Positions 26,372 through 29,151 of a stretch of DNA of 32,151 bases are shown one piece after another (position 1 is the stretch's first letter; each line of letters begins with the position of its first letter). The notes under the pieces were generated by a model. The model worked only from the letters and a program-made list of their open reading frames with translations, had not been told where the DNA came from and made no database searches. A program made the position numbers and the translations under genes. The stretch comes from an uncultured Rhodospirillales bacterium (GTDB lineage Bacteria > Pseudomonadota > Alphaproteobacteria > Acetobacterales > Acetobacteraceae): assembly GCA_903927465.1 (NCBI GenBank), contig CAIYMY010000201.1, positions 1 to 32,151 of the forward strand, written 5' to 3'.

Positions 26372-26447
26372 GGGGCTGTAGCTCAGTTGGGAGAGCGCGT
26401 CGTTCGCAATGACGAGGTCAGCGGTTCGATCCCGCTCAGCTCCACCA
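26372..26447 (+). tRNA. tRNA-Ala (anticodon CGC)
   Basis: A 76-nt cloverleaf. Acceptor GGGGCTG (26372-26378) pairs with CAGCTCC (26437-26443), followed by discriminator A and encoded CCA. The D-arm is GCTC/GAGC. The anticodon stem is CGTCG/TGACG with loop TTCGCAA, placing anticodon CGC at 26405-26407, which reads GCG alanine codons. The T-arm is AGCGG-TTCGATC-CCGCT. All arms pair with only expected G-U wobbles. Its 3' half, from 26410 to the CCA, is repeated exactly at 29114-29151, the mark of a tRNA used as an integration target. Confidence 0.96.
26410..26447 (+). repeat. att-like direct repeat, left copy (3' half of tRNA-Ala)
   Basis: The 38 bases from the 3' side of the anticodon stem through CCA recur without mismatch at 29114-29151 in the same orientation. 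Flanking bases differ on both sides, so identity ends exactly at the tRNA 3' end. This matches the attachment sites of tyrosine recombinases that integrate into tRNA genes and leave the gene intact on one side. Confidence 0.9.
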
Positions 26448-26546
26448 CTTTTCACGCCTAACCAGCTTTCAGGCCAGGAAACTAGCTTTTCCGGGTCAGA
26501 TTTGTACGAATGTAGACCGCCAAAATTTAGAGAATTGCTTCCATCC

Positions 26547-26573
26547 TAGAGCTGAATCCGATTTGATGGATTC
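26547..26573. repeat. TAGAGC-initiated palindrome upstream of the OGT-like gene
   Basis: TAGAGC (26547-26552) is followed one base later by GAATCC and its complement GGATTC, separated by 8 bases (26554-26573). It shares the TAGAGC start with the two palindromes at 28932 and 28995, but no closing GCTCTA is present, so it may be a degenerate unit. The rest of the AT-rich gap 26448-26688 has no gene. Confidence 0.5.
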
Positions 26574-26688
26574 ACCCGTTCCCTTTTCTTGCTGCAAACG
26601 ATGCAGAATTTAGTGCAGCTAATGTTGTTTCGCGGCGTTGCGGTCTCATGATCGAAAAATCCCATCCGAGCAACTGGGAAGGTAAAGG

Positions 26689-28911
26689 ATGATAGGAAAC
26701 CCATCGATGGGTATGCCGGGCGCAGCGATAGACGCGTTGCTCGCGCAGGCTGTGGCCCTGCATCAACAAGGACGTATCCCGGAAGCGCGGCTGGCCTATA
26801 GGCGGATTCAGTTCCAGGATCCACGCCAATTTACCGCTTGGCATATGGGCGGTGTTGCGGCGCTACAGGCTGGCGATACTCGTGACGCCCATGCCCTGAT
26901 TCGCAAGGCGCTGGCCCTGCGCCCGAATGATGGGGCGGCGCTGATCAATTTGGGCCTTGTCTTGCATCGCCTGGGGAAACTGCCGGAGGCCCTGCTGGCC
27001 TTCGATCAGGGTATGAAAACCCGCGCAGATGATCCCAGCGCGCATAATAATATCGGCAATCTCCTGCGTGACATGAAACGCCATGAAGCTGCGCTGGAAA
27101 GTTTTGGCCGCGCCCTGGCACTCAATCCGCATAACGTGCTGGCCTATGCCAATCGCGGCACAGTGCTACGTGACCTCGATAGGCTTGAGGAGGCATTGGC
27201 AGATTTCGACCAAGCGCTTGCCCGCGCGCCGGGCTATGCCATCGCGCATTACAAGAAGGGTGAAACCTTGGCTGAATTGCGTCGTTTTCCCGAAGCCCTG
27301 GCGCATTTGGATGCGGCGCTGCGGCTGGAACCGGAAAGCGCGCTTTTCTACGCCAGCCGTGGCAGCATTTTGCAGGACGCCAAGAATTTCGAGGATGCGC
27401 TGCGAGATTTTGATCAGGCGATCCGGCTGGAACCGGAAGCAGCGCGTTACCATCAAGGGCGCGGTCTTGTCTTGCAGGATATGCGCCGCTTCCGGGAAGC
27501 CGCGGCCGCCTTTGATCGGGCGCTGAAGCTCGACCGCAACTTACCCTTGCTCCAGGGGCAGGCCTTGGCGATGCGGATGGCGATTTGTGATTGGCGGGAT
27601 TTTGACAAATCCCGAGCAGCGGTTGAAGCCTCCATTGCTCGTGGCATTGCGGCATCGCCGCCCTTCTGCATGCTGGTTATCAGCTCATCGCGCCAATTGC
27701 AGCGTCAATGCGCGGCTTCTTGGCTGGCGCGGGAAGCCCAAACGGTAGCCTCTGCGCCACAGCGCTCGAACACTACGGGCAGTAAAATCCGCATTGGCTA
27801 TTTTTCGGCAGATTTTCACAATCACGCGACCGCCTATCTGATGGTCGAAATGTTTGAACGCCACGACAGGACACGGTTTGAGGTTATTGCCTATTCCTTT
27901 GGGGCCATAACGCAAGACGCCATGCGGACACGTTTGCGCGCGGCTTTTGATGCGTTCGTCGAGGTTGGTCATTTATCAGATGGAGATATCGCCGCCCTTG
28001 CCCGCCGTGATGGGATTGATATTGCGGTTGATCTGAAGGGCTTTACTGGGGAAGGGCGTAACAAAATATTCGCCCATCGGGCGGCCCCCCTGCAGGTAAG
28101 CTACCTGGGCTATCCCGGCACCATGGCAGCGGATTACATGGATTATCTTGTGGCCGATCCGGTGCTGATCCCGCCCGAGCATCAGAGGGATTACGCTGAA
28201 AAAATCATTTATGTGCCTCATAGTTATCAGGTGAATGATAGTACGCGCCTTATCGCGAAAAACAGTCCGGATCGTGCGAAATTGGGTCTGCCGGAAGCGG
28301 GATTCGTTTTCTGCTGCTTCAACAACAACCACAAGATAACGCCATCCGTCTTTGATATCTGGATGCGGCTGCTGCGTGCCCTGCCGGGCAGTGTTTTTTG
28401 GCTGCTTGCGGATAATGACGCAGCCGTTGCTAATTTGCGTAGGGCTGCCATTGCACGTGGGGTTGAAGAGCATCGGCTGATCTTTGCCGATCGGATGGAG
28501 CTGGCCGAGCATCTCGCCCGCCATGCGGCAGCGGATCTCTGCTTGGATACGCTGCCCTATAATGCCCACACCACCGCGAGCGATGCGCTATGGGCAGGGC
28601 TACCGGTGCTGACGCAGCTAGGGCAAAGCTTTGCCGGACGCGTCGGCGCCAGTCTTTTGACCGCGCTGGACCTGCCGGAACTGATCACGGAAAGCCCCGC
28701 TGCTTACGAAGCCCAGGCGCTTAATTTGGCGCGCAACCCGGCCCGGCTGAGCGCCATTCGGCGTAAGCTATGGGCGCAACGCCTGACTGCGCCGCTGTTT
28801 GATGGCGGGCGTTTCGCGCGCCAGATAGAAGCTGGTTTTGTGAAGATTGTGCAGCGACATCAATCGGGCCTACCACCCGAACATATCATGATTGCCGATG
28901 ATCCGGCCTGA
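26689..28911 (+). CDS. TPR-containing O-GlcNAc transferase-like protein (GT41, SPINDLY type)
   Basis: A 740-residue protein. Residues about 10-290 are seven to eight TPR-like repeats (for example GTVLRDLDRLEEALADFDQA, 157-176). A linker follows, then a GT41 catalytic region from about 366: RIGYFSADFHNHATAYLMVE with His379 at the position of the catalytic His of human OGT. DLKGFTGEGRNKIFAHRAAP (448-467), SYLGYPGTMAADYMDYLVAD, FNNNHKITP with Lys549 matching the nucleotide-sugar-binding Lys, and DTLPYNAHTTASDALWAGLP (620-639) complete it. All key motifs are intact, so it should be an active cytoplasmic transferase moving GlcNAc, fucose or another sugar to proteins. TPRs would pick the target. 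The ribosome site is GGTAAAGG. It is the only gene between the tRNA-derived repeats; its acceptor is unknown. Confidence 0.9.
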   Translation: MIGNPSMGMPGAAIDALLAQAVALHQQGRIPEARLAYRRIQFQDPRQFTAWHMGGVAALQAGDTRDAHALIRKALALRPNDGAALINLGLVLHRLGKLPEALLAFDQGMKTRADDPSAHNNIGNLLRDMKRHEAALESFGRALALNPHNVLAYANRGTVLRDLDRLEEALADFDQALARAPGYAIAHYKKGETLAELRRFPEALAHLDAALRLEPESALFYASRGSILQDAKNFEDALRDFDQAIRLEPEAARYHQGRGLVLQDMRRFREAAAAFDRALKLDRNLPLLQGQALAMRMAICDWRDFDKSRAAVEASIARGIAASPPFCMLVISSSRQLQRQCAASWLAREAQTVASAPQRSNTTGSKIRIGYFSADFHNHATAYLMVEMFERHDRTRFEVIAYSFGAITQDAMRTRLRAAFDAFVEVGHLSDGDIAALARRDGIDIAVDLKGFTGEGRNKIFAHRAAPLQVSYLGYPGTMAADYMDYLVADPVLIPPEHQRDYAEKIIYVPHSYQVNDSTRLIAKNSPDRAKLGLPEAGFVFCCFNNNHKITPSVFDIWMRLLRALPGSVFWLLADNDAAVANLRRAAIARGVEEHRLIFADRMELAEHLARHAAADLCLDTLPYNAHTTASDALWAGLPVLTQLGQSFAGRVGASLLTALDLPELITESPAAYEAQALNLARNPARLSAIRRKLWAQRLTAPLFDGGRFARQIEAGFVKIVQRHQSGLPPEHIMIADDPA

Positions 28912-28931
28912 GTGGGATGGCTAAATCCCCC

Positions 28932-28982
28932 TAGAGCAGATCGCGTTCAGATGGAATCATCTGAACGCGTGAAGATGCTCGA
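28932..28982. repeat. TAGAGC palindromic unit 1 (near-perfect long hairpin)
   Basis: A perfect 12-bp inverted repeat CGCGTTCAGATG/CATCTGAACGCG with a 4-base loop lies at 28942-28969. It is enclosed by outer arms TAGAGCA (28932-28938) and TGCTCGA (28976-28982) with one mismatch. In addition GAGCAGATC at 28934-28942 is matched by GATCTGCTC at 29049-29057, so units 1 and 2 can be enclosed in one larger fold. It lies just past the OGT-like gene; a terminator or mRNA-end role is possible but no T-run follows. Confidence 0.75.
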
Positions 28983-28994
28983 AAAACAACGATG

Positions 28995-29036
28995 TAGAGC
29001 GGGTTGCGTGAACCCATGAGAACGCAACACGCTCTA
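28995..29036. repeat. TAGAGC palindromic unit 2
   Basis: TAGAGCGGGTTGCGT (28995-29009) and ACGCAACACGCTCTA (29022-29036) form a 15-bp stem with one mismatch and a 12-base loop. It begins TAGAGC and ends GCTCTA like unit 1, but the inner sequence is unrelated. That suggests a family defined by its ends, as in dispersed intergenic palindromes. The surrounding stretch 28912-29113 has no credible gene; 29070-29113 is AT-rich. Confidence 0.72.
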
Positions 29037-29113
29037 AGGATACCGGCTGATCTGCTCAAGGACGTGCTAGAAGAAAGCATTTTTCAATATATTAAAAATG
29101 AGGAGTAAATTTT

Positions 29114-29151
29114 TGACGAGGTCAGCGGTTCGATCCCGCTCAGCTCCACCA
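29114..29151 (+). repeat. att-like direct repeat, right copy (tRNA-Ala 3' fragment)
   Basis: An exact 38-base copy of 26410-26447. It lacks the acceptor 5' strand, D-arm and anticodon, so it cannot make a tRNA. An AT-rich run (AAATTTT) precedes it. Its right flank leads into the rpmE terminator, which should represent the original chromosomal sequence following the tRNA gene. Confidence 0.9.

Follow-up and report, generated by a model that had tools for sequence, protein, structure and literature searches.

The DNA analysed here, referred to as the window throughout, consists of 32,151 nucleotides (positions 1 to 32,151 of contig CAIYMY010000201.1, assembly GCA_903927465.1) from an uncultured bacterium of the Acetobacteraceae, whose genome (G000; 3.78 Mb in 220 contigs, 98.5% complete, the window lying on contig C201) carries a single predicted GT41 glycosyltransferase gene inserted immediately behind a tRNA gene. 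The left anchor of the insertion is an intact tRNA-Ala(CGC) gene on the forward strand (26372 to 26447; found by ARAGORN and by Rfam RF00005 with 62.9 bits) and the right neighbour is rpmE, encoding 50S ribosomal protein L31, on the reverse strand (29293 to 29517). The last 38 bases of the tRNA gene, from the 3' side of the anticodon stem to CCA (26410 to 26447, forward strand), are found again on the same strand at 29114 to 29151, 38/38 identical and with a spacing of 2704 bp from start to start. The identity ends sharply, on the left just 5' of tRNA base 39, where by eye the 3' anticodon stem begins, and on the right just 3' of CCA. A perfect repeat with different flanks, enclosing one protein gene and no integrase, had been described in an earlier note made from the sequence alone, and both observations held, the only protein gene found between the copies being a GT41 open reading frame (ORF) of 740 amino acids. 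In 60 mononucleotide shuffles (three for each of 20 loci, at most 1500 bp each) the best local match to the tRNA half scored 8-16 compared with 38 in the window, and a chance origin of the repeat is therefore excluded. The tRNA half is also contained in a tmRNA match (29045-29151) that, at 19.8 bits, stays below the cut-off of 47. The suggestion that a recombinase might lie beside another copy of the 38-bp site was not borne out, as no third copy was found in G000 with up to three mismatches allowed.

The site was compared among 35 genomes of the genus, including G000. A 31-base tRNA end (at most two mismatches) was present in 20/35 genomes and was not found at this threshold in the other 15, among them G018 (99% complete), and the stretches around the tRNA end were examined in all 19 other genomes that have it. 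In nine of the 20 genomes rpmE was the right neighbour, and between these fixed neighbours the cargo varied: GT41 was present in G000, G019, G023 and G026, a Methyltransf_24 gene on the other strand in G022 and G028, and in G004, G027 and G029 the site was empty with the tRNA directly beside the rpmE terminator region. Each of the six filled sites contained one recognisable gene. The three empty sites have the arrangement that had been anticipated for an excised insert, and they answer the proposal to look for an empty site in relatives. When 26448-29151 was removed from the window, 593 of 645 aligned positions were identical to G004, the nearest relative, whose site is empty, and the match ran through the junction. 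The right flank of the right copy is therefore the counterpart of the empty-site flank and the DNA following the left copy is cargo.

In the remaining 11 genomes (G003, G013, G015, G017, G020, G021, G024, G025, G031, G032 and G033) rpmE was absent from the stretch compared, some of these stretches ending at contig ends. G003 carries a fusion of Glyco_tranf_2_5 and Methyltransf_24 behind tRNA-Ala, and an OmpA-family gene in G031 and a Bestrophin-like gene in G032 may be plain neighbours. In G020 (L035, 5769-6114) a methyltransferase-like ORF, recognised by eye and with no Pfam match, lies behind tRNA-Ala, followed at the contig end by what appears by eye to be the start of an insertion sequence transposase. 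The theme of glycan and methyl transfer among the cargo genes was recognised post hoc. Homologues of the methyltransferase with at least 83% identity were found in 2/35 genomes, both at the tRNA-Ala locus, compared with 7/35 genomes for any match at E 1e-30, and synonymous divergence (dS) between G022 and G028 was 0.565 for the methyltransferase, 0.465 for FolD and 0.485 for PriA. Two sets of candidate second copies were rejected. A look-alike between GT41 and rpmE in G019, considered as a decayed right copy, scored 13, with 9-11 in its own shuffles and within the range of 8-16 for all shuffles. Double copies were also seen in 11 genomes of the family outside the genus, and in 8/8 examined (G196, G270 and G299 being left out) the second copy was a tRNA-Ala(GGC) sharing the 3' half.

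A second duplication at the site was observed in G028, where two complete tRNA-Ala copies surround the methyltransferase gene on a contig of 653,519 bases. This repeat is 107 bp long (106/107 identical) and reaches 31 bp upstream of the tRNA, which is unlike an exchange between attachment sites in tRNA 3' ends. To the left of copy 1 there are five private substitutions in 50 bp compared with six in the preceding 550 bp (Fisher p = 0.001, the 50-bp limit having been set after viewing the alignment), and the three sisters of G028 have 0, 0 and 1 private substitutions in the same 50 bp. Judged from this cluster, copy 1 looks as if imported together with its flank and copy 2 would be the recipient's own tRNA, as expected from one-sided homologous pairing combined with an illegitimate joint. 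Homologous plus illegitimate recombination anchored in the tRNA would thus fit G028 better than the action of an integrase.

The cargo gene of the window (26689 to 28911, forward strand) is an intact ORF encoding tetratricopeptide repeats (TPRs) and a GT41 domain (PF13844, E 2.8e-87), resembling the O-glycosyltransferases OGT and SPINDLY. The protein could be aligned to OGT chains in PDB across the catalytic domain with DFxNH, FNxxxK and HTTxxD kept, which we take to be the catalytic motifs of GT41, and it is predicted to be probably an active GT41 protein O-glycosyltransferase. Whereas presence of the gene at this locus throughout the family, with no empty site and a phylogeny matching the species tree, would have refuted the mini-island of the earlier note, homologues with at least 84% identity were found in only 4/35 genomes (G000, G019, G023 and G026), all at the tRNA-Ala locus, and empty sites exist. 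Any GT41 match at E <=1e-60 was found in 32/35 genomes, with at most 56% identity beyond the four carriers; two more GT41 paralogues are present in G026 (8% contamination). In the named collection 3/27 GT41 loci were 84-86% identical and the remainder at most 62%. GT41 matches occurred in 11 phage records, all below 60% identity and none covering 80%, and in 369 plasmid records, none covering 80%, and PADLOC returned a single weak TPR match.

The divergence of the cargo was compared with that of core genes of the same carriers. The dS values were 0.41-0.56 for GT41, 0.48-0.65 for FolD, 0.29-0.50 for a PdxY-like kinase and 0.46-0.59 for PriA (three pairs, without G019). Given that dS of GT41 is similar to that of core genes, the gene is either as old as the split of its carriers or has passed between members that are just as divergent. 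It does not appear to be recently foreign, although its GC content is lower (GC at third codon positions, GC3, 0.60-0.64 compared with 0.71-0.75 for FolD in the same genomes). The ratio of nonsynonymous divergence (dN) to dS among carriers was 0.15-0.20, which suggests purifying selection on GT41.

The histories of the cargo and the flanks were compared for the quartet of carriers. The GT41 gene groups G000 with G026, the other two topologies being rejected by the approximately unbiased test (p = 0.010 and 0.0003), and the left flank groups G000 with G019, with the GT41 topology rejected (p = 0.001). The right flank leans to the GT41 topology and does not reject that of the left flank (p = 0.22). 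Presence of GT41 requires at least four changes on the left-flank tree of the nine typed genomes, a count made with no shuffled control. These sequence comparisons support an exchange at the locus, in which either the cargo or the flank may have moved. In the PriA tree, G026 is placed apart from G027-G029, to which it is closest by both flanks; PriA, a single unlinked marker, was distrusted as a species tree, as G026 and G000 seem mixed. Both flanks of the window group with G004. G000 also contains a 5.5-kb region in two versions that are 87.5% identical (L092, 2906-8379; L093, 6494-11916).

The remainder of the insert consists of three segments. A leader on the forward strand (26448 to 26688) lies between CCA and the GT41 gene, its start resembling that of G026 (TTTTCACGCC) and unlike the empty-site flank. 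Behind the gene is a dispersed repeat of 105 bp (28931 to 29036) with the ends CTAGAGC...GCTCTA, for which there are 20 other matches in G000, 17 of them nearly complete (93 bp or longer, 92-97% identity), followed by an AT-rich segment of 77 bp (29037 to 29113, forward strand) that is matched elsewhere only by short stretches. In this segment an open tail of 23 codons ends with TAA (29037-29108). The tail is possibly a gene remnant, a weak reading that chance could also explain, and the 23 amino acids had no relative among phages, plasmids or Pfam.

Matches to the tyrosine recombinase family PF00589 were found in 34/35 genomes of the genus, and among those listed none was on a contig with tRNA-Ala. 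There were four in G000 (on C41, C82, C17 and C192, none on C201), three of which we take to be Xer-like from their length and context; the fourth, of about 410 amino acids on C192, is the tyrosine integrase of a roughly 4.4-kb island at tRNA-Lys(CTT) (L048, 1653-6088). The island is flanked by exact repeats of 56 bp, which take in the tRNA end, has inner repeats of 30 bp with one mismatch, and is a canonical counterpart within the same genome. Serine recombinases were sought in G000 alone, giving six matches, and no link of the recombinases of this genome to tRNA-Ala was found. On C38 (L172, 1609-8980) a resolvase-domain ORF of 572 amino acids reaches into the 3' end of tRNA-Met(CAT). The final 13 bases of this tRNA occur again at 1609-1621 (E 0.008), which would point to an island of a serine recombinase at the tRNA. 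A match of 22/24 bases between the right end of the window insert and contig C206, near a serine recombinase, was unconvincing as it falls at an ORF end. In IMG/VR contig L163 (1149-14907) an ORF that by eye is similar to large serine recombinases runs into tRNA-Ala(GGC), and nearby ORFs resemble, also by eye, a BREX defence cluster. Contig L164 has a sub-cut-off PF00589 match (17.3 bits) at one end and a similar tRNA-Ala 3' end, beside a host-like gene, near the other.

The explanation we favour is that, in part of the genus, the gap between tRNA-Ala(CGC) and rpmE serves as a hotspot for cargo of one gene, filled by recombination anchored in the tRNA. The probability assigned to it is about 0.45, lowered from 0.50 because the G028 tract is without an identified donor. 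Incoming chromosomal DNA from relatives would pair with the tRNA gene, which is near-invariant, and with the flank 5' of it, resulting in a homologous crossover on the left, and on the right the joint would be made by recombination that is illegitimate or relies on short homology. In two of the nine genomes this right joint would fall within the tRNA-Ala gene of the recipient or a little upstream of it, and the resulting scar would be a second tRNA copy that is partial in the window (38 bp) or full in G028 (107 bp). The window lineage would then have gained the insert, rather than G004 having lost it, and GT41 would have been circulating in the group, or repeatedly lost from it, roughly since the carriers diverged, with glycosylation as the trait that may be selected. 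A more general version is that tRNA-Ala(CGC) is a docking site on its own, at which one gene for a glycan- or methyl-transferase would be exchanged for another, or gained and lost, with no recombinase at all; the tRNA and about 30 bp of its 5' flank, near-invariant between species, would provide the homology anchor, and the tRNA would sometimes be partly or wholly duplicated. We consider this version doubtful.

A number of observations weigh against recombination anchored in the tRNA. The GT41 carriers G019, G023 and G026 have no clear second tRNA copy, and at the right joint of the window no microhomology is visible by eye. No donor was found for the substituted tract of G028, G022 sharing only one of its five private bases, and the cluster belongs to G028, the left flank of the window resembling that of G004 with no imported tract discernible. 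A 38-bp 3' part of a tRNA that follows an insertion usually indicates an integrase (as described for tDNA islands in PMC4383910), and L164 has a similar tRNA-Ala end beside a host-like gene. The insert has a GC content of 56.2% compared with 60.5% and 62.0% for its flanks, and dN between carriers is higher for GT41 (0.08-0.09) than for core genes (0.01-0.04); together with the lower GC3, these values also count against the gene being an old resident. Furthermore, several of the genomes are mixed or fragmentary metagenome-assembled genomes (MAGs), and the doubled 5.5-kb region indicates that G000 is either a mixed MAG or contains a divergent duplication.

Site-specific integration is a serious possibility, short of an even chance. 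A tyrosine or large serine recombinase would have inserted a circular element carrying a tRNA-Ala 3' end, with the 38-bp copies as attL and attR, and the integrase would since have been lost from the element, or the cassette mobilised in trans. Our estimate for it was raised slightly because an att exchange would account for the 38-bp scar equally well; for this scar alone, a lost or trans-acting integrase is nearly as likely as tRNA-anchored recombination. The exact repeat from the anticodon stem to CCA has the correct orientation and side, removal of the insert restores a site like that of G004, and the low GC content of the insert and the possible gene remnant next to the right copy point in the same direction. 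The 3' ends of tRNA-Ala genes are used by integrases elsewhere, as in L163, in L164 and, according to PMC1762012, by phage Ms6 with a 26-bp core. An enzyme acting in trans on the tRNA-Ala site is possible, and the one PF00589 protein of G000 that is not Xer-like and the six serine-recombinase matches could do so; however, the former belongs to the tRNA-Lys island with its own 56-bp repeats and one of the latter runs into tRNA-Met. The missing third copy of the site, the absence of tRNA-Ala contigs among the PF00589 matches listed and the extension of the G028 repeat upstream of the tRNA argue against an integrase. Of the integrated mini-island proposed in the earlier note, a one-gene insertion precisely behind the tRNA with patchy occupancy and lower GC content was thus upheld, whereas its origin by a tyrosine recombinase was weakened by the last two of these points and a recent acquisition of the cargo by the core-like dS of GT41.

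It is improbable that GT41 is ancestral at the locus with an old second tRNA copy, and that G004, G027 and G029 were emptied by deletion between direct repeats through slippage or RecA. The core-like dS would agree with this, and a deletion between the 38-bp copies would yield the observed empty sites. However, a 38-bp copy under no constraint is unlikely to have stayed perfect since the split of the carriers (dS about 0.4-0.5) unless the tRNA has converted it, no clear copy is present in the other three carriers, the GT41 and left-flank topologies are discordant, and gains do occur at the site, as the other cargo of G022 and G028 shows. An assembly or binning artefact joining two strains is very improbable. 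The two versions of the 5.5-kb region in this MAG would be in line with it, but a misjoin requires shared sequence at the joint and no such sequence can be seen at 29113/29114, the two flanks both group with G004, and a comparable structure is present in a second genome, G028, on a long contig.

Among described cases the closest one found is fGI-2, an additive flexible genomic island of the freshwater 'Ca. Methylopumilus', which has repeats of a tRNA-Lys end and contains as few as one coding sequence (PMC10872708); according to that report its repeats recur in varying number, compared with one 38-bp tRNA-Ala copy in the window. As in the tDNA islands defined by Islander (PMC4383910), a tRNA gene is followed downstream by a displaced 3' fragment in the same orientation behind an insert of more than 2 kb, and the spacing in the window lies within the 2 to 200 kb used there, but those islands, as defined in that source, must have an integrase and none is present in the window insert. 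Hotspots with no integrase, where recombination takes place at flanking core genes, have been described (PMC5635113), and the present site shares with them the turnover of cargo between fixed neighbours, the lack of any mobility gene seen in the cargo and the discordant histories of cargo and one flank; the double-crossover model as given in that source leaves no tRNA duplication, whereas in the window the apparent anchor is the tRNA, part of which is duplicated. Homology-facilitated illegitimate recombination is also known (PMC2884548, PMC5361080). The process as proposed for modules of the type VI secretion system in Vibrio (PMC5361080) would be similar in having one conserved anchor, an illegitimate joint at the other side and recipient sequence kept downstream, and different in that here the anchor would be a tRNA gene and the kept piece of the recipient a tRNA fragment. 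No paper joining Roseomonas, genomic island and tRNA-Ala was found in the literature library searched.

Fragments of tRNA genes flanking a piece of DNA are commonly read as the mark of an integrase. The two insertions in related genomes, with unequal duplications and in one of them a cluster of substitutions on the left, provide a testable case in which a tRNA gene would act as a plain homology anchor, and the site, with one gene and with empty and filled states, is a simple population marker.

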